NCBI GenBank assembly: GCA_006384855.1
Contig: VCJN01000861.1
Location: forward strand, 17,719 to 81,718
Direction: 5' to 3'
Source of the DNA: Tetraselmis striata
Lineage: Eukaryota > Chlorophyta > Chlorodendrophyceae > Chlorodendrales > Chlorodendraceae
Length of the DNA stretch: 64,000 nucleotides
Both the position numbers and the translations under genes were made by a program. Positions 13,232 through 60,945 of this stretch are shown one piece after another. The notes below the pieces were generated by a model that saw only the letters and a list, made by a program, of their open reading frames with translations, was not told the origin of the DNA and made no database searches. Positions within the stretch are counted from its first letter, which is position 1; the number at the start of each line of letters is the position of its first letter.

Positions 13232-13266
<35 letters not shown>

Positions 13267-13695
13267 CGGGCGCAGCGGGCGGGCCTTGGACGGGGACCGT
13301 CACCTGCTGACCTGTTCGGCCCAACATGGCCGCAGCCCAAGCTGTGCGGTGGCGAGGGCGTACCTGCCTGTCGACGTTGACGAGTCCTGAGTGTCTTGCG
13401 ACTGGATGCTGGGTATCAGGGAGGCGCGTGGGAAGCACGGGGGTCTGCAACGGGTGTGGCGCGGCTGCTGTGTCGCTGCGCTGCGACGACGGGGAGGGTG
13501 ATGGGGCTAGCGTGATGGGGCTGTCCGCGCACGGCCGGGAGTCGGCGGGAGTTCGAGCGGCGCACTTTTCGCGGTGACAGCAAGCGATCGGCTACCATAT
13601 CGTTCAGTGTCAGTCCGTAAGACAACCCTAAGGGAGTGCAGGTCCCAGTAGCACGGGACAGTACAAATGACACGAATTTCACGTGCATCCCTCGG
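12745..13695. other. Intergenic region with the longest G run of the window
   Basis: Contains an uninterrupted G run of about 35 (13232-13266). Open frames overlapping it translate to Gly or Pro runs and are artefacts. The SAP30-like gene's promoter should lie here (12745 onward); no TATA box is seen. Confidence 0.5.
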
Positions 13696-13721
13696 TTTCA
13701 AAGTTGAGTCTGGTTTTGCCA
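13696..13721 (-). repeat. 26-base split repeat, outer copy
   Basis: Identical to 14001-14026. Starts TTTCAAAGTTGAGTCTGG. It forms one end of the recombinase element. Confidence 0.85.
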
Positions 13722-13814
13722 AAAAGGTCGCGCAGGCTGTTTTACACGGTCAAGAGCCGAAATTGGCAGGAAGGTTTAGCGAAAAGCGTGGAGGGAAAAC
13801 GGAGTCAGGGGGGG

Positions 13815-14000
13815 CGCTGCGTGGAACGCAGCGAAAACTGGAAGATGGCAGGCTCAGCTGTTCTGGCTGCTTTTATGTCTACTCGTGCTGCACCCAACAA
13901 GGGCGCAACAACAGTTACTAGTTCCCGTACCACTGCGCAGCACTTGTAGCTGAAAAGCGGTTAGGTCAAGGATGGAAACCCCATAAACTAGTTTAGATCA
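13815..14000 (-). repeat. 186-base split repeat, inner copy
   Basis: Matches 16727-16912 with about two substitutions over 186 bases. Begins with an 8-base inverted repeat, CGCTGCGT-GGA-ACGCAGCG (13815-13833). It abuts the inner 26-base repeat without a spacer. Confidence 0.9.
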
Positions 14001-14026
14001 TTTCAAAGTTGAGTCTGGTTTTGCCA
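14001..14026 (-). repeat. 26-base split repeat, inner copy
   Basis: Identical to 13696-13721. It overlaps the last codons of the recombinase frame. Confidence 0.85.
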
Positions 14027-15208
14027 GTCTTGAGCGAACGGAGAGAGCGGTGGATTGACGGAGAAGGGGTAGCGCCAAGTCATGAAGGAGGCACTGGGAA
14101 GGCCACCGCTGCGGAGTCCTGTTGGACTTGGAAGTGGCGGAGAGGGGCGATGTGTCCAAAGAAGAACCACGCGCCAGGAGAAGGAAGTAAGAACGTTGGG
14201 GTCGATGTAGTCCAGAACGACATCAGAGTTAGTGGCCCAACCGCCCTGGTAGCGGATGTGGGACAGTGGCGCTCCAATGGCGTTTGCTGCAGAGGCTGCG
14301 CCCTTGCGTAGACTGTGTGAAGTCCATGAAGTGCCAGCAGGGGGGGCAGCGTTGACTAGGTTGACTGCTGTAGACAACCAGTCTGACATCGTAGTAGCAG
14401 TCCAAGGTTTCGACTGCTCAGCCACATTGACAGCCCAGAAGTTGGAGGTAGCCAAGCCAACAGTAACCAGGGGGACAGACTGGACGTTGTCGATGAAGTA
14501 GCGCAAGAGACGTGCCACTCGAGGGTGCTCGGACACTGGAAGGAGAAGTACGCGCAGGTCGTCAGGTCCCCGCCGGCCGGCGCGACCCTTCTCGCGGTAG
14601 ATCTGCAAGGTGATGTTGTAGGTGTCGACATGCACATCTTGCACTCGACAGGAGACGCCAGTAAGGCCCCTGGCAAAGAACAGGAAGTTGACAACCGAGG
14701 CCAAGAGGGCTCGGTAGTCGAGGTGGGACTCTGGGTAAGGAGCAGACACAATTAGCTCGGCCTTTGAGACGAAGCGGTAAGCTACATCCGCAGGCAGAGG
14801 GACACGCAAAGGGGCAGCGTCCAGTCGACGCTGACGTAACATTAACCCACGTCTTGCCGAAGTGAGGTGTAGGCTGTCCTTGGCGATCGGGACGAGGTTG
14901 TGCAGCTCGAAGAAGGTGTTGATGGCAGACAGATAGGGCTGCAGCGACTTAGCTGCGATATGCCCTCGCTCCCCGATCCAGGCAACGTACCGAACAACAG
15001 TAGCAGTAGTCGCCTCTAGCGGGCTGATGTTCTCGGAGTCGTGGCAGAACTCAGCGAACTGAGCCAACCTGCCGGCGTAGCTCTTGAGGGTCTGAGCGCT
15101 GAGGGAGCTGGAGAGCAGGTCGAGCGTCCGCTGGCCTAGCTCGTCTGAGCCGAACGCGTCGGGATCGCAGTGACGCAGCCCACAGAGCGATAGCTGCGGG
15201 CTCGTCGA
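14003..15208 (-). CDS. Tyrosine recombinase (phage-integrase fold) of the mobile element
   Basis: Would excise or insert a circular DNA form of the element. The frame is open for about 400 codons. The N-terminal part (LSAQTLKSYAGRLAQFAEF onward) is a core-binding helical domain. The catalytic domain shows Arg in FFARGLTGV, a Lys in YREKG, H-S-L-R in SHSLRKGAAS, Trp in QGGWATNSD and the candidate nucleophile Tyr in VLDYIDP, so the R-K-H-R-W-Y set is complete. There is no ATG near the start: the frame begins after a stop at about 15209 and the first in-frame Met is well inside. Translation may therefore depend on splicing, a frameshift from the upstream frame, or a non-ATG start. The catalytic set is what matters for calling it potentially active. 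Confidence 0.8.
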   Translation of the reverse strand, partial: STSPQLSLCGLRHCDPDAFGSDELGQRTLDLLSSSLSAQTLKSYAGRLAQFAEFCHDSENISPLEATTATVVRYVAWIGERGHIAAKSLQPYLSAINTFFELHNLVPIAKDSLHLTSARRGLMLRQRRLDAAPLRVPLPADVAYRFVSKAELIVSAPYPESHLDYRALLASVVNFLFFARGLTGVSCRVQDVHVDTYNITLQIYREKGRAGRRGPDDLRVLLLPVSEHPRVARLLRYFIDNVQSVPLVTVGLATSNFWAVNVAEQSKPWTATTMSDWLSTAVNLVNAAPPAGTSWTSHSLRKGAASAANAIGAPLSHIRYQGGWATNSDVVLDYIDPNVLTSFSWRVVLLWTHRPSPPLPSPTGLRSGGLPSASFMTWRYPFSVNPPLSPFAQDWQNQTQL

Positions 15209-15701
15209 TTACGTAAGTGCGTCGTTTTACTGACAGAGTGCCACCGGGACGGCTACTGTTCGCAAAGTACTCGGCAGCAGCGGTTAGGTTCCCGGCGGTT
15301 GGCCGGTAGTTGCTGGACGGGTTTGCAGTAGCTCCAGTACGGGTTTGCGGGGCTAGGTTCAGGTAGGAGGGCCGCCCCGCGCGCCCTTCGCGCTCATAGC
15401 GCCTGTCCCGTGCGTAACGTACACGCGCGAAACTTGGTCGTTGCGAACCGGTTGTAACTCGTAGTGTAACAACCGACGAACGCAGAGATGGGGTTGTAAG
15501 AAAGGCGGATGGTTGAGCCGCCATGTGCAGGTGTGCGGATGGTTGAGCCGCACTCGGCTGTAGCTGTAAGAAGCGCCGCACCGAGGAAGGTCTAAATGAA
15601 GTCTGTAAGGTGGGGGGGTCAGGTCCTGACACAGGGCGCTCATCCCGTCGTTGAGCTGCAAGGGTGCGCCTTGCGGCGGTCACCGAAAGGTGGCCTCGCA
15701 A
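15051..15701 (-). CDS. Unassigned ORF between gag-like ORF and recombinase
   Basis: 216 codons, Arg/Ser/Pro-rich, overlapping the start of the recombinase frame. No domain recognised and no RT motifs (no Y-x-D-D). Includes a short direct repeat (GGATGGTTGAGCCGC at 15508 and 15537). It may be a linker region rather than a separate protein. Confidence 0.3.
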   Translation of the reverse strand: MRGHLSVTAARRTLAAQRRDERPVSGPDPPTLQTSFRPSSVRRFLQLQPSAAQPSAHLHMAAQPSAFLTTPSLRSSVVTLRVTTGSQRPSFARVRYARDRRYEREGRAGRPSYLNLAPQTRTGATANPSSNYRPTAGNLTAAAEYFANSSRPGGTLSVKRRTYVIDEPAAIALWAASLRSRRVRLRRARPADARPALQLPQRSDPQELRRQVGSVR

Positions 15702-15737
15702 GGCTCCTGCAGCTCCGACGAACGGCGCCCCACACCG

Positions 15738-16613
15738 TCACTCGTGCTCACCTTCGCGGCCACGTCCACGTCCGCCGCCACGTCCTCGCCCACGCCCGCG
15801 ACCTGCAGCTGCAGCCGCCACTCGAGAAGTAGCGGTCGCCTTGGCGCTGCTGGCAACGGTCGCCTCGAAAACACGACGCTCGTAGTCCCGCATGAGGTCC
15901 CCAAAGATCGCGGAACCCAGATGCTCCGAAGCAGGCTGAAAATGCTGAGCTCGCAGCACATCCAGAACACCTTGGTCACCGTGCACACGCTTGATCTCAT
16001 TGAGCTTCCGTAGGAAGGCCAAACGAAACCGAAACGCCTTGTCGATGGCCTCGGCGTGGTTCCGGGCTCTCGCGAGGTAGGGGGTGAAGTCCTGGTTGCT
16101 GGAAGGGACGTAGGGCAGTAGCTCGTCGAGCGCCACGAAAAGGGCGGCCATGTGGGCCCCGAAACACGACATCCACAAGTACTCCTCCTGGGCCGGCAGA
16201 CGCCGGTCATCCTGCTTGAGGTACTCGTTCGTTAGGTCGGTGCTCAAAGGGAAAAGTCCAGGCACTCGGCTGACCGGTCGAACGGCCTCGTAACCAGACT
16301 CTGCTCTCTGCAGTAGCTCTGGCACCGCGAGGTAATCATCCTCGGCACTCACGGATTTTGCTCCGACACGGCCGCTCTGGGCTAGCTCTAGCAAGTCGGG
16401 GCGCTCTGCGGCTCCCCCGCTGCCTGTCGGCTGTCTCGCGAAGCGCTGCCCTGAGCCGGAGCCATGTGCCCCTTCTCCATCAACAACGCGATCACGAGCC
16501 GTCAGTTGTGCCACAGCTGTAGCCAGCTCTCGCAGTAATGAAGACTGGGCCCTCATATCTGCGTTCAGCGACTGCAGCGTCGGCTCAGCGACGGGTTCTT
16601 CTCCATCTGACAT
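15738..16613 (-). CDS. Gag-like ORF of the recombinase element
   Basis: 291 residues from the ATG at 16613 (an upstream GTG exists in frame). The order is an acidic N-terminus, a central helical region (about residues 110-230; GLFPLSTDLTNEYLKQDDR, then EEYLWMSCFGAHMAALFVAL) and a C-terminal Arg/Gly run (GRGRGRGRGGGRGRGRE) typical of RNA- or DNA-binding tails. Position ahead of the recombinase and the RG tail suggest a structural or nucleic-acid-packing protein like the first ORF of DIRS-order elements. That role is inference; no conserved Gag motif was identified. Confidence 0.55.
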   Translation of the reverse strand: MSDGEEPVAEPTLQSLNADMRAQSSLLRELATAVAQLTARDRVVDGEGAHGSGSGQRFARQPTGSGGAAERPDLLELAQSGRVGAKSVSAEDDYLAVPELLQRAESGYEAVRPVSRVPGLFPLSTDLTNEYLKQDDRRLPAQEEYLWMSCFGAHMAALFVALDELLPYVPSSNQDFTPYLARARNHAEAIDKAFRFRLAFLRKLNEIKRVHGDQGVLDVLRAQHFQPASEHLGSAIFGDLMRDYERRVFEATVASSAKATATSRVAAAAAGRGRGRGRGGGRGRGREGEHE

Positions 16614-16726
16614 AGTAACGCACGGACGTACGGACGAGAATATCACACTCGGGTGGCGAGCCGGGTGTGGTCTTGAACAACCTGGGGTGACCTTGCTCGC
16701 AACGGGTTACGAGACAGTTTTTACAT

Positions 16727-16912
16727 CGCTGCGTGGAACGCAGCGAAAACTGGAAGATGGCAGGCTCAGCTGTTCTGACTGCTTTTATGTCTACTCGTGC
16801 TGCACCCAACAAGGGCGCAACAACAGTTACTAGTTCCCGTACCACTGCGCAGCACTTGTAGCTGACAAGCGGTTAGGTCAAGGATGGAAACCCCATAAAC
16901 TAGTTTAGATCA
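16727..16912 (-). repeat. 186-base split repeat, outer copy
   Basis: Pair of 13815-14000. The same 8-base inverted repeat lies at its left end (16727-16745). It forms the other end of the recombinase element. Confidence 0.9.
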
Positions 16913-17524: not shown

Positions 17525-20237
17525 ATGTTCCGCCCTCACAGTAGCGCCCCGCCAGGGAGCCCTCACACGTCCTGCGCCATGCCGACTATTTACAGTCGAG
17601 TGCTGCCACGGGGTGCACCTCTCCAGAAGCGACTGCCGCACGCCGGGCGGCACGGCTCATCGGCCCCCACAGCGGGCGGCGGGAATGCTGTGGGCGCGCA
17701 CAGCATGGTGTGGACGGGAGGATGGAGCGAGGCCGACATGCGGTGAGGGCCACCATTTGTAAAGGGAGAGCTTATGAGTCCCTGTCGATTCGGGGGACGG
17801 AAGGCAGCCATCGCGCTATCGTGGTTGCAAGCTGCTGGGTCACTCGCCACGTCACATTTGCCGCGTCGTCGCTTGGTTACAGTCACCCCTCGTCCACTTC
17901 TAAGCCGATGTAAATTCATGTGCGCGCGATGTGACAGACTGGCTATTGGCGGCGCCAAAGCGGCGGGTTACGACCTGGTGGAGGGTGCGCCCGCCCCCCC
18001 CCCCCCCCCCCCCCCCCCTTTCCACTCCCATCTGCGCAGAGGTATAGGAAATCGCAGCTAGGTTCATACTCTGCCATCCATGACAGTGGTATTCCTTGGC
18101 GCTGCTGGTGACCGCAGTCGCCACGCTCAACCCGGCCACCTTCCTGGGCAAGGCCAGCGCGACGCGAGCGGTGCTGGAGGAGATGGAGATGTCCGTCGCC
18201 AACAGCCTGGTGCGCTTACACCCTCACAGACCCCACGCCCTACTCTCGTGCTCAGTGCAGCGAGCCAACGGCAGAAGGCACACCGGATGCCCTCCCCCCC
18301 CCCCCCCCCCCCCCAAATGGCAGGGTCTCCCGCCTGACAAGGACATCAACTCGGAGGACAAGGAATGTGTGGCACGCGGGGTGGAGGAGCTGACGGCCGC
18401 GGTGGAGGTGAGCTGCCCCCCACGGCTGGGAGACCACTGTCCACATGTTCTGTTTTTCTCAATATTTTTATCAGTTTACCGTATTTACGTTGGTACATTT
18501 CCTTGAAATTTTTGTCTTGATGTTCAATTATTATAAAGTACGGGAAGCGTTGATTAATGTCGTTATTGTTGATGTTTTAAAGTTACTGACATTTGTACAT
18601 GGGTTCACTGCAGCTCACTGTGGCGGCTGCGGGCTGAGCTGTGTCGTCCCTTATGCACAGGTCGCGCATCGCATGGGCTCCAAGTACGTGTGCGGCGTCA
18701 TCTACTGCGCGCTGCAGAAGTACCCGGGGCCGCCTACGCCCGCCGGCCGCCGCAACTGCGCCGCTGCGATCGCGCAGGTGGCCGACATCGCGGCGGACAA
18801 GGGTGTCACCCTGGGGCTGGAGGTCCCCATCCCCCCCCCCCCCCCCCCCCACCTCCCTGCTGCCGGCCCCGCCCGCCTCGGAGGCCAGCATGTTGAGTCG
18901 ATGACTTTGGCTCAGAGCCGAGGACGCATCGCTGAGGTAGTTGGATGTGCCGCCGCAGGTGGTGAACCGCTACGAGACCAATCTGCTCAACACCGCAGCG
19001 CAGGTGCGGATGAGGCATGGGCCTCCTTGACGGTCTGGGTGCGCTGCATTGGTAGGCCGCGGCCATTTAGCGGGCCCCCCCCCCCCCCCCCAATGCCCCC
19101 GCTGACCCAGCCCGCGGCTCCCTGTGGTGCGGCGCTTCCCAGGCAATGGACTTCATCTCGGACGTGGGCCGCGACAACGTGATGGTCCACCTTGACACGT
19201 ACCACATGAACATCGAGGAGGTCAGCATGCAGGATGCGGTGCGCACGTGTGGCAACAAACTCGGGTGCGTCCCCCCCCCCCCCCCCCCCCCCACCACCAC
19301 CACCTTCCTAACTGAATACAGTGTTAATACTATCCAGACAACCTCATTTATTCCTATAATTGACCTATCAACTCAGTTTATGAACTTGTTAACTTGTTCA
19401 TTATACCGCACTTGTTAATTTGTGAACTTGTTAACTGTTCATTGTGCCTTTAATAACTCATTCACAGGCGCATCAAATTCACGATGCCGATGCCTTTTCT
19501 GTTCTGCCTGTCAATACTCTAACCATGTGCTTTCAACAAACACCGTGTGCGCATCATGTGGTGCAACATCACACACACCCCGAAGCAAGTAAACACAGCG
19601 TTGCATGCCTCTGGAGCAGCCTTGCTTTTTCACACGCGCTTCCTCAGGCTCCGCGTCCCTGCTGGCTGCCCCCCCCCCCCCCCCCCTAGGTATGTGCACG
19701 TGGGAGAGTCGCACCGCGGCCACCTGGGCACCGGCTCCGTTGACTTCCGCGGCCTCTTTGATGCGCTGGCCGCCATCGACTACAGGCACGCGCGCCCTTT
19801 TCTCACGCGACGGCGCACTCCATGCCGCCAGTCCCGGTTGGCAGCGACAGCCAGGGCGCTGACTATCCGCCGCCGTGTGCTGTCCCGCTGTAGCGGACCC
19901 ATTACGTTTGAGAGCTTCTCCTCTCGGGTGGTCAGCCTGGACCTGTCCAACACGCTCGCTGTCTGGAGGGAAATGTGGGCGCCCCCCCCCCCCCCCCCCC
20001 CCCCAACAGTACTCGCACCCCGGCCTGCCGCATGCACCCCCTCTGGCACTGCGATCATCAGCCAGGTGGACTCTCAAAAACACACGGAGATCTAGCATGT
20101 ACGGCCCGGCGCAAGGGCCCGGCAGGACTGACGGCCAGGGGCGCACGCGCAGGTGGGACGACTCCGACGACCTGGCGGTGCGCTCCAAGGCCTTCATCGA
20201 TGCGCACCTGGCGAACGCAGCGGCGCTGCGGCCTTGA
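17525..20237 (+). CDS. Ketose 3-epimerase-like TIM-barrel protein (D-tagatose/D-psicose 3-epimerase family)
   Basis: Members interconvert ketohexose C3 epimers with a divalent metal. Exons: 17525-17742, 17938-17984, 18118-18209, 18324-18407, 18661-18822, 18959-19003, 19143-19264, 19690-19785, 19894 to about 19977, and a final exon (about 20135 or 20151) to 20237. Hallmarks in order: GAHSMVWTGGWSE; AKAAGYDLVE; INSED; VTLGLEVVNRYETN, with the metal-binding Glu; HLDTYHMNIEE, with metal Asp and the family His; YVHVGESHRG, with metal His; GPITFESF, with the last metal Glu. All four expected metal ligands are present. The start is uncertain (17525 or a second ATG at 17578); the extra N-terminal 60 residues are basic and could be an organelle leader. 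Intron 8 appears to use a GC donor. Seven introns carry C runs of 16-25. Confidence 0.83.
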
Positions 20238-20713: not shown

Positions 20714-23470
20714 TCAGGGCGCCCTCGCCTCCGCCCGGCCGCGCAGCGCCTGGATGATGTCCCCGAGCTCCTGGCTGAAGCGCTGCTCCGCCGCCAGGTC
20801 CCCCCGCAGCGCGTCCTTCTCCTCCACCAGCTCCTCCACCTGCCCCCGCCGGCATGCGCACGCCCATGAGCTTTATCCCTATAACCATGAGACTCGCGGA
20901 TAACCGCATCCCCCATTTGAGGTCTAGAATACTAAGGGATGCCCACGCGCCAACCGCATGAATGGCCTTATTCAACATTACCAAGTCTGGAATATGTTAT
21001 TGTTCTCATCATAATTACTATTTTCAAGTCTAATAATTAAGTTATTTTAATATTGATATACTAATATATTATTAATTGGCATTGTGCAATCGAGTCTGGA
21101 TTGATATAATTATTAATAAGTCTGGAACTGGGCTTGCATGAAGCCTAGCAGAAATATTCGTTATATCTTCGCTTTGCTTTCGTCTGTATTTGATCTCTGG
21201 CAGGCAGGGCGGGCTATTCTTCCCGCCATCGTCAGCAGTGTTCGCATGGCGACCGCTGCGGTCGGGTGGCTCCCGTAGGTGAGTCGGCACCCGTGTGGTT
21301 CTGGGCAGCACGAATTATGGGTTCCGGCGGCGGGGGGGGGGGGGGGGGGGTTCACCTGCTCCCGCAGCTCCTCCACCACGCCTGCCATCTCCTGCGCGTG
21401 CTCCCACTCCCGCGACGCCGCCGCCTTGAGCTCCCGGGCCTTGGCCGCCAGCGCGTCCCGCTCCGCCGCCACGCCCTGCAGCGCCCCGCGGGCCTCCGCC
21501 GCTGCCGCCTCCGCCGCCTCCGCCCGCGCCGTCGCCTCGGCGCCCGCCTTGTGGGCGGCCTCCAGGGCGGTACGGCACTCGGCGAGCTCCCCGCGGGCGC
21601 TGTCCCGCTCCGCCTGCACCTCCGCCACCTTCCCACCAGAATCACAACACGCAACGTGGTGCTCTGAATCTCCGGTGCAGGACCACCCAGCCACCCACCC
21701 AGTCCCGGTTCCGGAACTGCAGATGCGAGCAGGGTTGGCCGTATAAACCAGGGTTGGGCTGCAGTATCTACTGCACTGCAGACTGCAGTACTTCCCGAAA
21801 AGCGGCTGCAGTGCAGTTACCCAAAGTGCCCCACATATATGCCCTTCTCTGTCCCGCCCTTCCCTATAATCAACAGTTTCAGTGCTACTGCAGTCTGCAC
21901 TACAGCTCGCACTGCAGCCTGCAGTACTGCAGCCTGTTGACTGCTGCCTGCACTACAGCCTGCCTGCAGCCTGCAGTACTGCACTGCAGCCTGCAGTACT
22001 GGAAAGTGGACTGCAGCCCAACCCTGGTGCAAACGCAGGGGTAGCGACTAATTGCCCTTAGTCCGCTCAGTTGTTAACCGCGCGCAACCCGTTGACCTCA
22101 CCACCGAGAAAAGTGGGAAACGCACACCCATAATTATTACCATCATAGATTCCAGTGGCCTGAATCTTTTTACCTGGTCTACACCTGTACAAGGCCAGCC
22201 ACGTGAGGCTGTGAGGGCGCCCAGCATGTATAATAAAACGGCACTTTGTGACCCTGCTGAGTTGCGCTTGGGCGATTGAGTACCGAGGTCGGCGCGTAGC
22301 CAAGGTTCCGCTCAGTTAAGCAAGCTCAACGCGGACTGCCGCACCATCCCGGCGGGGGCGCGCACCTGCTGGTACGCGCGCTGCTGCTCCTGCTCCGCCA
22401 GCCCCCGCTCCGCGCCCGCCTGCTTCCCCGCGGCCTCCAGCTCCCCCGCCAGCCGAGCCGCCTCGCCGCGGGCCTGCGCCAGGTCCGCCTCCGCGCGGGA
22501 CAGCGCCGCGCGGGCGTCGGCTGCGCCGCGCCGCTCGGCCTCCAGCGCCGCGGCAGTGGCGTTGCCGCGCGCTTCCAGCTCCGCCAGCTGCGCTGCCGTG
22601 CGGCTTTGGCTTGTGGTCTGGAGAGCCACGAGAGCACGCCCGGCCGCAGAGTCGCTCAGCCAGCTCATCGCTGAAAGACTCCCCGCCGCTCAAATTCCCT
22701 CCAGAAAACTATCAATCGCAGCCAACATCTACCGGTGCCGACGCAGTAATAAGGACACTGCGGATAAGAACCTGCCCTGCCTGCCAGGGCTCAAATGTAA
22801 ACGAACCTATTGCGAGACTGTAGCGAATGTTATTATAGGTGGCATGCAACCCCAGTCTGAGTCATATAATAAGGGTCGCCGTAGGTGCGTCGGCATCCCT
22901 AAGCCTCACATCGGGCTTGCATGCCACCTATAGGAACACCCGCTATAGTTCCGCCATAGTTTCATCTGCATTTGGTCCCTGGCAGGCAGGGAAAGTTGCG
23001 ATTTGCAGCGTTCTGAATACTGAATTGGCACACATACGGGTAACTCCCTAAAACCCCCTAGAAAGCTCATCCGTGTTGGACACGCCCAGGTCCCCAGGTG
23101 AAACCGTACATGACCCAAGGTTTCTACCCCGTGCTTCGTGAGGGACCCATGACATCCTACGCGACTCCTGACACAAGGGAAAAAGGGGGTAGTCTGGGAG
23201 GAGGGAGCGCACGTGCTGCTGGCTGATGTGCATCGCACGCTTCTGCTCCGCCGCCGTCTCACGCCGGCTTGCCGCCAGCGCCTCCTCCAGCTCCCCCAGC
23301 CGCAGCTGCAGCGCCTCCTGGCTCGCGCCCGCCTCACCCGTGCGGGCCTTCTCCGCAGCGAGCTCCTCCTGATACGCAGCGGTCGCTCAGCACACCTAGC
23401 CCCTACCCCATTCAATCAAGATGCAAATCCGATGCAAGAGCATTATATGTGTATCTGTATATGTACCTGT

Positions 23471-23504
<34 letters not shown>

Positions 23505-23585
23505 GTCTGTGTGTGTGTGTATATGCACCTGTATATGTATATGTATATGTATGTATATATAATATGTTTATGTATATGTACCTGT

Positions 23586-23627
<42 letters not shown>

Positions 23628-23696
23628 GTGTGTGTGTGTATATGCACCTGTGTATGTATATGTATGTATATATTATATGTTTATGTATATGTACCT

Positions 23697-23740
<44 letters not shown>

Positions 23741-25329
23741 GTCTGTGTGTGTATATGCACATGTATATGTATATGTATGTATATATATTATACACACACA
23801 TATATATGATATATGTATATGTGTGTGTATATGTATATGTTCATAATTATGTCTATGTCTATGTCTATGTCTATGTCTATATCTATGTCTATGTCGATGT
23901 CGATGTCTATGTCTATGTCTATGTATGTTTATGGGCATGAGTAAGCTTCAGAGCCTGGCGATCTTGGCACTGCACAACCCTGCCACATCCCTGTGTATGA
24001 TGTAGAGCATTGCATCCTGCCCGGCCGATATTATTGCCCCCACCCAGACGCCGACTGATGCTTTGAGCAGGGGACGGGCATGGCGGTAGGGCTGATCCAT
24101 GTGGGCGGTCCCACCCACCCGCAGGCGCATGAGGTGCTCGTCCATCTTGGCACGCGCCCCCAGCAGCGCCTCGTTGTCCGCCATCAGGGCCTCGTTGTCC
24201 TCCAGCAGGCGCTGTGCGCCGCGCTCCGCCGCCGCCGCCGCCTCCTCCTGCAGCGCGCCACGCCGCACCGCTCCCTGCGCCTCCTCCGTCAGCTGCGCCG
24301 CCGCCTCCGCCTGCTCCTGCACCCGCATCTCCAGGTCCCTGGGGGCGCCGCGGCCAGGCAGTCAGCGCCCAGCGCCCAGCCAGGTGGCGCAGGGATGAAT
24401 GTGGGGCAGCAGGGCTGGCGAAGGCGCACTGCAGCATGGCCTCCAGCGTGACCACCCGGCTCTGCGTGGCGCCCATCTCCGTGCAGTCGGCCTCTAGGCG
24501 GTCCCGCTCCGCATGCAGCTCCTGCACGCGCACCTCCAGCGCATTGCGCAGCTCGGTCGAGCGGGCCAGCGCGCTCTCCGGCCCCTCCGCCGCAGCGAAC
24601 AGCGCCTCTTCCAGCCGCTGGCGGTCCTCGCGCAGCTCCTGCACCCACACCCTGAGACCCCCGCCAGCGACAATGCCAATGTACTCCTCAGTTGAGGTTC
24701 CTTGACCAAAAAATATAGGGGGGGATGGCGGGGGGCAGTGGATTGGGAAGGGAAGGGGGGAGGGGGGGGACCTCAGGCGACCCTCTCTCCGCACGCTAAG
24801 TGGCGCAGACGCGGTGTTCTGAGCGTTTCCGGCATCCGACGCGTCGTAGATCGAGGCGTTCAGCAGGCCGGAGGTGTCCGCAAGTTGCGGACCGCCGGGT
24901 CGCGGCGGTGGGCTGGGCGTGGAGCGGTTGTGCGCCCAGACGCCCAGGCCCGCCGGGCTGCCTGCGCTCGGAAGCGCGCTGCCGGCGACCAGTCCCGGCG
25001 CCGACACGTTCAGCTGTCGCAACCGTGCGCCCAGCGCCGCCACCTGCGGCGCCCAAAGGGCGAGGGACCCTCAGCGGCTGCCGGGCCGGAGCGGCAGCCA
25101 TCCCCGCATCCTGGCGCGGGCATGAAGAGCGAGCTGACCGTGCTGCTGTGCCACCTGGGTGTCACCGTCCTGCTGGCAACCCCCACGTTGGCAACGCCCA
25201 AAGCAGGCGCGGTTGGGGGCGGTGCACCAGGCGGGCAAGGGCGGCGCCGAGTAAAGTGCAGCCTACCCGCTGCAGGCGCGCCTCCAGCGCAGGGTCTGCT
25301 CCGGGCGGCGTGGGCGGCAACGACCCCAT
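20714..25329 (-). CDS. Long coiled-coil protein, function unknown
   Basis: Eight exons join with consistent phase: 25267-25329, 24772-25043, 24430-24651, 24119-24338, 23213-23368, 22366-22617, 21356-21628, 20714-20839, giving about 527 residues. After an N-terminal third rich in Ser, Pro, Gly and Ala, almost everything from residue 120 on is predicted coiled coil: VQELREDRQRLEEALF, LRNALEVRVQELHAERDRL, EEALAASRRETAAEQ, AAQLAELEARGNATAA and ELREQ, with dense Ala/Glu/Arg heptads and no motor or enzyme motif. A structural role (cytoskeleton, basal body or Golgi tether) is possible but unproven. The start is tentative: the frame stays open upstream to about 25490 without another ATG. Four long introns carry different repeats: 20870-21295, 21748-22026, 22725-23010 and 23450-23930. 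Confidence 0.7.
20870..21295. repeat. Intronic AT-rich insertion of the CTGGCAG repeat family
   Basis: AT-rich core (20990-21120) followed by a block with TGATCTCTGGCAGGCAGGG and GAGTCGGCACCC, matching the family described at 741-1085 and 22725-23010. Confidence 0.4.
21748..22026. mobile_element. MITE-like element with 18-base terminal inverted repeats and many CTGCAG sites
   Basis: Left end CCAGGGTTGGGCTGCAGT and right end ACTGCAGCCCAACCCTGG are exact reverse complements. The interior is dominated by CTGCAG, CTGCAGTACTGCAG and related palindromes, so the single strand would fold extensively. Non-coding, inside a coiled-coil-gene intron. No convincing target-site duplication found. Confidence 0.7.
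22725..23010. repeat. Inverted-repeat (foldback/MITE-like) element in an intron
   Basis: Left arm (about 22765-22850) and right arm (about 22908-23000) are imperfect reverse complements: CTGCCAGGGCTCAAATG pairs with CATTTGGTCCCTGGCAG, and TATAGGTGGCATGCAA with TTGCATGCCACCTATA. It has relatives elsewhere in the window (see 741-1085). Confidence 0.65.
23450..23930. repeat. Compound microsatellite/minisatellite
   Basis: Three tandem units of about 114 bases, each with CCTGTACAC (23466, 23581, 23694), then a CA run, a TA run, a GT run and GTATAT repeats. A TCTATG hexamer array follows (about 23850-23925). Lies in a coiled-coil-gene intron. Confidence 0.9.
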
Positions 25330-60190: not shown

Positions 60191-60520
60191 CGTCAGTCAA
60201 AATCATTCCCCATGCCGAAATAAAGCGGATGAAAAGTGTCATGGGCTTGAGATCCAGGATTCACAAAAACGTGAATAGCAACCAATGTGAATTCACAATA
60301 AGTACTACACTCATTATTCGCGGGTGCCGGCGCTTCCTGTTGGAATCCTTATTATTTAGTAGCGTATAGGAGGCAATTAAATTTAGACGGCGTTGCCTGG
60401 CCGTGTTTCATGTGCCACCCTTCTAGCGTTTTTCTATTCCTCTTTGTCGCATCATGCTTATTATTATTATCATTATTACTATCACTGTTACTATCACTAT
60501 TACTAGTTTGATAATATATA

Positions 60521-60945
60521 ATTATTTATAGGATGATGATGATCATTAAGATTATTATCAATATTGTTATGGATTCTGTTTTCCCTATAATTGCCGAAGT
60601 TCCATTGCAGCAAACTGTATAGAAGCGATAATAATAAGGATTACGTCATCATTCATGTCTACACTTCGATTATTGATTCATACACTGTCTATATACAAAC
60701 CTTACAGGTATGTACTTTACTATACTTTACTATGATTATAATTATTTATATGATGATGGTGATTATTAAGATTATTATCAATATTATTATGGATTCTTTT
60801 TTCCCTATCATTGCTGAAGTTCCATTGCAGTAGACTGTCTAGAAGCGATAATAATAAGGATTACGTCATCATTCATGTCTACACTTCGATTATTGATTCA
60901 TACACTGTCTATATATAAACCTTACAGGTATGTACTTTACTATAC
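60521..60945. repeat. Tandem duplication, unit 220 bases
   Basis: 60521-60725 and 60741-60945 are nearly identical at an offset of exactly 220 (for example CTTACAGGTATGTACTTTAC at 60701 and 60921). The AT-rich core carries GATGATGAT and ATTATTAT runs. Confidence 0.9.

Follow-up and report, generated by a model that had tools for sequence, protein, structure and literature searches.

Closest described systems

Retrotransposons are usually sorted into autonomous elements and their parasites. The tyrosine recombinase (YR) retrotransposons of the Ngaro/PAT/TOC3 type (order DIRS) are characterised, in the available portions of their descriptions, by split direct repeats around the open reading frames (ORFs) in the arrangement A1-ORFs-B1-A2-B2, a Gag-like ORF, a YR and no target duplication (PMC4157794, PMC3266345, PMC8547959). 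The element described here lies in a stretch of 64,000 nucleotides (nt) of the Tetraselmis striata genome, referred to as the window (G000:C681:17719-81718 of a 224 Mb assembly, which the genome searches cover). Its family shares split direct repeats, a Gag-like ORF, a YR and the lack of a target duplication with what those sources describe. It differs from them, as excerpted, in that the window element has neither reverse transcriptase (RT) nor RNase H, in the 93-nt spacer that precedes its final repeat, and in that RT-RNase H sits on a separate element with a matching junction. The window element appears to work like half a Ngaro/PAT-type element, and is not classed as one because it has no RT.

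Cryptons are described as having no terminal inverted repeats and no long direct repeats, only short terminal direct repeats, and a DNA-only circle has been proposed for them (PMC3212892). The window element is like a Crypton in having a YR without RT, but differs from that partial description in its long split repeats (186 nt and 26 nt) and its Gag relative. SIRE is given in abstracted text as a short, truncated non-autonomous form of VIPER, with ends shared with its helper (PMC6681497, PMC12278014). A gene-less 2.6 kb element of this genome is of this kind as far as that text goes, whereas the window family, unlike a truncated form, has two ORFs maintained by selection. In concept the closest precedent, judging from a partial account, is the rice pair ePVCVL/ePVCVL2, non-autonomous pararetroviruses, one with a coat protein and the other with RT/RH, which have a common regulatory sequence and for which a mutualistic partnership was proposed (PMC5491270). 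Here too there are two complementary non-autonomous retroelements with a shared cis sequence. The rice elements are, by the same account, fossil viruses with no YR and no split repeats, whereas those described here are transposon families with many open frames and a shared recombinase junction. No YR retrotransposon divided between two elements is described in the literature titles and beginnings of abstracts searched, subscription papers and Repbase being beyond this search.

The window element is, with a probability of about 60%, the gag+YR half of a two-component YR retrotransposon, with the RT-RNase H on an element of the P0160 family and YR sites common to both. On balance, the two also seem to form an obligate bipartite retrotransposon, a Gag+YR element and an RT-RNase H element of which neither is autonomous, linked by a shared recombination site and kept by selection. 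An earlier note on this DNA had left a choice between a non-autonomous form, copied in trans and still with its own recombinase, and an RT-less circle element driven by the recombinase. The first is favoured, the candidate partner being an RT-RNase H element that has no YR and whose junction matches in sequence. The second is weakened by the Gag homology, the selection on Gag and the concerted B repeats.

A large, young family without RT

The window element is a member of a large, young family. A genome search with the element, as the earlier note had proposed for copies with the same boundaries, gives 43 matches, of which 40 are long and 34 span the whole query. The copy set consists of 36 further loci and the window. 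The 40 aligned copies comprise 38 young ones (window copy included) and two old relatives, which are full length and 87% and 83% identical to the family. Young copies have a mean pairwise divergence of 0.39%, and none of the 703 pairs is identical. A pattern search for the A/B junction, allowing at most 3 mismatches, gives 948 genomic sites, 466 on one strand and 482 on the other, and 0 for the reversed-pattern control. Protein matches to the products of the element, up to 98%, are labelled Tetstr1.

The earlier note had described an element without RT, and the window element gives no Pfam match to RT or RNase H (three frames scanned). Nor is there room for one, as no aligned copy (n=40) exceeds 3230 nt; neither the 38 young copies nor the two old relatives have RT. 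Because both of these are full length and RT-less, the RT-less state predates the split from the 87% and 83% relatives. The ends are common to many copies, and no RT-bearing parent was seen among the families examined.

ORF1 is open over 322 codons from stop to stop in 38/38 young copies, and ORF2 is continuous over 553 codons in 34 of the 38, the exceptions being the window copy, L015, L037 and L041. The recombinase of the window copy, which had been called intact, is frameshifted. Relative to the 34 continuous copies, 8 nt are deleted from its ORF2 near 15160 and 4 nt are inserted near 14188, giving two overlapping frames, and the insertion alters the C-terminus of the recombinase. The frameshift was rejected as a family trait, given the continuous ORF2 of most young copies.

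Coding content and selection

ORF1 and ORF2 are one frame with a single TGA between them; ORF2 may be expressed by read-through or by initiation of its own. ORF1 has no Pfam match, and is by sequence homology a Gag relative. It aligns with the Gag-like part of P0135 (expectation value (E) 3e-13), a protein with a Gag-like part and a YR whose RT presumably lies in another frame, and with the Gag-like part of P0189 (E 4e-4), a same-genome protein with a Pfam RT domain. A direct comparison of ORF1 with the P0136-family Gag gives no match (E 1.2); that Gag itself matches P0135 (E 2e-8). The AlphaFold model of ORF1 is helical, with a mean predicted local distance difference test score (pLDDT) of 45.7, and was not used.

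ORF2 has a Pfam match to Phage_int_SAM_1, and a Phage_integrase match that is under its cut-off. As had been noted from the letters, R, K, HSLR, W and Y are all present in the recombinase frame, and we take them to be the catalytic residues. In an alignment of six rows, YRs of RT-bearing elements among them, every row has R, K, HxxR, W and Y. Four gene models of the same genome (P0126, P0128, P0130, P0132) fuse the recombinase to domains of host type (AAA, methyltransferase, WD repeats); these fusions could be annotation artefacts or captures.

ORF1 and ORF2 are under purifying selection, with a ratio of nonsynonymous to synonymous substitution rates (dN/dS) of about 0.2. Among the young copies, the distinct variants are 36 synonymous, 25 nonsynonymous and 0 nonsense in ORF1 (p 5e-6), and 46, 38 and 0 in ORF2 (p 8e-6), where about 2.2 nonsynonymous per synonymous are expected. 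ORF1 variants shared by at least two copies give p 3e-4 alone. Measured against the two old relatives (87% and 83%, in that order), ORF1 has dN/dS of 0.21 and 0.18 (dS 0.25 and 0.38) and ORF2 of 0.20 and 0.19 (dS 0.37 and 0.48); the YR part of ORF2 has 0.15-0.20 against the two. Because both ORFs are under purifying selection, the lineage must have been RT-less for long and is no fresh deletion. An intron over the N-terminus of ORF2, implied by gene models, is disfavoured, since the stretch from codon 71 has dN/dS of 0.17 and 0.24 against the old relatives; compared with copy L033_98, it has 0.79, on six changes.

Insertion and the B repeats

Insertion is precise and without target duplication. 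The right end is complete in 34 copies, among which is the 83% relative; none of these has a duplication of at least 4 nt, and their flanks match over 2 nt in three and over 3 nt in two. The first base of the right flank is C or T in 34/34 copies. In the left flank of the 40 copies, the last two positions are never G and the third is never C. At L055 (C764) a copy is nested in the B of another copy, between positions 17 and 18, with 0 bases lost or gained.

Two arrays were also seen. In L055, element copies lie in a head-to-tail array with a period of 3203 nt, starting from the nested insertion into B. In L054 (C2579), the terminal unit B-spacer-A is in a tandem array with a 349-nt period.

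Within a copy, the B repeats tend to evolve in concert. Both are complete in 34 young copies, and in 32 of these the left and internal B show no difference. Private changes are present in both B repeats of L033_98 (one) and L042 (two), and there are more in the old relatives. Concerted change is expected if one repeat templates the other, and gene conversion is the alternative.

An RT-only element with a matching junction

The P0160 element is 3.05 kb long, has split direct repeats of the same layout and encodes RT-RNase H. P0160 has RT and RNase H domain matches and no YR domain. Its RT was scored at 72 loci, and 46 of these are stop-free within the match. In the copy on C450, the RT stop is directly followed by A, then B, spacer and A, and the left B ends 265 nt upstream of the open frame. 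The pieces read between the ends of this copy have no Gag or YR hit, and its middle is covered by a single gap-free match to P0160. A DNA search for RT-only tails (n=40) places 21 directly after a scored RT ORF and one 353 nt away. The genome has 215 RT-only A/B junctions (control 0).

Junctions were compared by alignment score against 500 shuffles. The RT-only junction aligns with that of the gag+YR element with a score of 35, reached by 0/500 shuffles (shuffle maximum 16). Elsewhere the two elements are no more alike than shuffles in the rest of B, the spacer or the interior pieces (189, 160 and 102 of 500). The junction of the gene-less element scores 34.5 against gag+YR (0/500), and those of two RT+YR families, P0136 and P0203, score 22 against each other (0/500). 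The junctions thus form two classes, that of the RT+YR elements and, set apart from it, that of the gag+YR, RT-only and gene-less elements.

The gene-less element is about 2.6 kb long, has the same split-repeat layout, and lies beside four loci, L024, L021, L014 and L041, at L057+L024 (C1898), L056+L021 (C1077), L058+L014 (C175) and the L041 flanks (C1103). No Gag, RT or YR hit was obtained for it. A 511-codon open frame in the copy at L056+L021 is not kept in two other copies (forward strand scanned). This element is probably a passenger. Its A'/B' tail had been considered as a mark of the RT parent, which is not supported, as there is no Gag, RT or YR hit.

RT+YR families of the same genome

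A search for RT among proteins of at least 825 amino acids with a YR like that of ORF2 gave 21 hits, and P0136 (RT-RNase H-YR) is the only same-genome hit among them with a Pfam RT domain. Its YR is 36-38% identical to that of the window family. The family has 71 matching pieces from 52 scored candidates, and its repeat geometry is the same (177-nt B, 30-nt A, 92-nt spacer), but the junction differs. P0136 as a helper with shared ends is not supported, its junction being of the other class. P0203 is a second RT+YR family in the genome, its junction being known from one copy. A scan of the genome with PF00078 gave 150 matches. A structure-database scan of P0136 gave RT matches only, and scans of viral contigs with P0007 and P0136 gave no relatives. 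In a YR tree, the YR of the window family is on a long branch amid RT-linked YRs; deep forks are open, and so the tree places no parent for the family.

The P0136 family adjoins itself and the window family at two loci. In L051 (C158), two P0136-family elements lie head to tail with an A/B junction between them. In L053 (C1567), a window-family copy begins 28 bases past the end of a P0136-family element.

Candidate explanations

The gag+YR and RT-only elements appear complementary in sequence, each being without what the other encodes, the left end of the RT-only element being known from one copy. In the two-component explanation, ORF1 and ORF2 of the window family would make Gag and YR. This Gag would package both RNAs, and the RT of the RT-only element would copy both. 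The internal A-B block would template the missing ends of the complementary DNA, giving a circle with an A/B junction, and the YR would recombine this junction with short similar genomic sites, without target duplication, acting on the junctions of both elements. The gag+YR element would thus be responsible for recognition of RNA and ends, and the RT-only element for the polymerase. The sequences themselves show the anatomy of the copies examined, the purifying selection on ORF1 and ORF2, the precise insertion, the concerted B repeats and a shared junction that the P0136 and P0203 families lack. The steps in trans, the RNA and circle intermediates and the packaging are those that we infer.

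Several observations weigh against this explanation. ORF2 variants shared by at least two copies show, alone, no departure from neutrality (p 0.12), and B changes confined to the left B occur in two young copies, the window copy (two) and L027 (one). The left end of the RT-only element and its lack of Gag are known from one copy (C450), and 18 of the 40 RT-only tails have no RT among the 72 scored loci. The P0136 and P0203 junctions are weakly like that of gag+YR, with scores of 15.5 and 13.5 (4 and 5 of 500 shuffles), and these RT+YR families of the same genome might be the source of RT. The RT families P0193 and P0220, and singletons, have unread ends and may leave room for a complete helper with the gag+YR junction. 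The bipartite model is, moreover, built from sequence comparisons throughout.

Such a complete helper is the main rival, although an unlikely one. An unread Gag-RT-YR family with the same junction would mobilise both the gag+YR and the RT-only elements, each a separate derivative. There are further RT families in the genome whose ends are unread, and shared ends are common between helpers and dependents, for example between VIPER and SIRE (PMC6681497). However, P0136 is the only RT+YR hit of this genome in the search described above, the P0136 and P0203 junctions are of the other class, and the RT-linked YRs of the genome are distant in sequence from that of the window family. In addition, selection on Gag and YR would not be required in a mere passenger.

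It is improbable that the window family is a parasite of the RT+YR families, with its own Gag and YR and an RT borrowed from P0136 or P0203, the RT-only element being another client of the same YR. P0136 loci are many, have the same repeat geometry and sometimes adjoin the window family, as in L053. Stop-free RT frames are nevertheless abundant in the RT-only element, and a mere client would not keep them.

Less probable again is a DNA-only, Crypton-like element, whose YR excises and reinserts DNA circles with no RNA step and whose split repeats are two tandem recombination sites. The presence of a YR, the absence of RT and the precise insertion without target duplication are all consistent with it, and a copy at L044 that terminates with the internal A, less one base, and the tandem copies at L055 are possible products of site-specific exchange. 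Selection acting on a Gag relative and the concerted change of the repeats make the DNA-only circle less likely. The approximately 950 junctions also need a replicative step, and RT-bearing families show the same geometry. A dead deletion derivative of an RT-bearing parent, with copies decaying or spread by segmental duplication, would fit the missing RT and the broken ORF2 of the window copy, but is very improbable in view of the full-length ORF1 and ORF2 in nearly all young copies, dN/dS of about 0.2 over a long divergence, the clean ends and the unrelated-looking flanks.

Anatomy of the window element

The order on the minus strand is B, ORF1, ORF2, A, B, the spacer and A, which is the split-direct-repeat layout A1-ORFs-B1-A2-B2 plus a short spacer (Table 1). 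The earlier note had this order right except for the spacer between the last B and A, and its repeats hold as well: the two B copies differ at 2 positions and the A copies are identical. The A/B junction is presumed to be the circle junction and the recombinase site.

Table 1. Features of the window element, in window positions.
Feature	Position	Strand	Evidence or remark
Whole element, one gag+YR family copy	13696..16912	minus	ends match 34/40 long genome matches; clean flanks
Left (5') B repeat, 186 nt	16727..16912	minus	direct repeat; two changes private to the window copy
ORF1, Gag-like, first ATG to TGA stop	15738..16613	minus	open in 38/38 young copies; Gag homology; dN/dS
ORF2, first part (recombinase)	15051..15737	minus	ORF1 frame after single TGA; small deletion near 15160 leads to stop
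ORF2, tyrosine recombinase frame, 401 codons stop to stop	14003..15208	minus	Pfam matches; R, K, HxxR, W, Y; dN/dS
Internal A repeat, 26 nt	14001..14026	minus	identical to terminal A
Internal B repeat, 186 nt	13815..14000	minus	direct repeat
A/B junction, A plus first 27 nt of internal B	13974..14026	minus	crossover 14000/14001; matched in RT-only and gene-less elements
Spacer between internal B and terminal A, 93 nt	13722..13814	minus	once per copy
Terminal (3') A repeat, 26 nt	13696..13721	minus	identical to internal A

Long homopolymer runs of G and C flank the element on both sides (window 13232-13270 and 17990-18018). Elsewhere in the window there are tandem repeats at 23456-23791 (113-nt unit, three copies) and at 60517-60945 (220-nt unit, two copies, 94% matches).

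Implications

If the two-component explanation is true, the pair would be a transposon counterpart of a multipartite virus, and would show how a retroelement's genes can become distributed over separate mobile units yet reach hundreds of copies. The only likeness found between the gag+YR and RT-only elements is the recombinase junction. The replication model for split direct repeats would also become testable, because the polymerase and the recombinase would be on separately removable elements.

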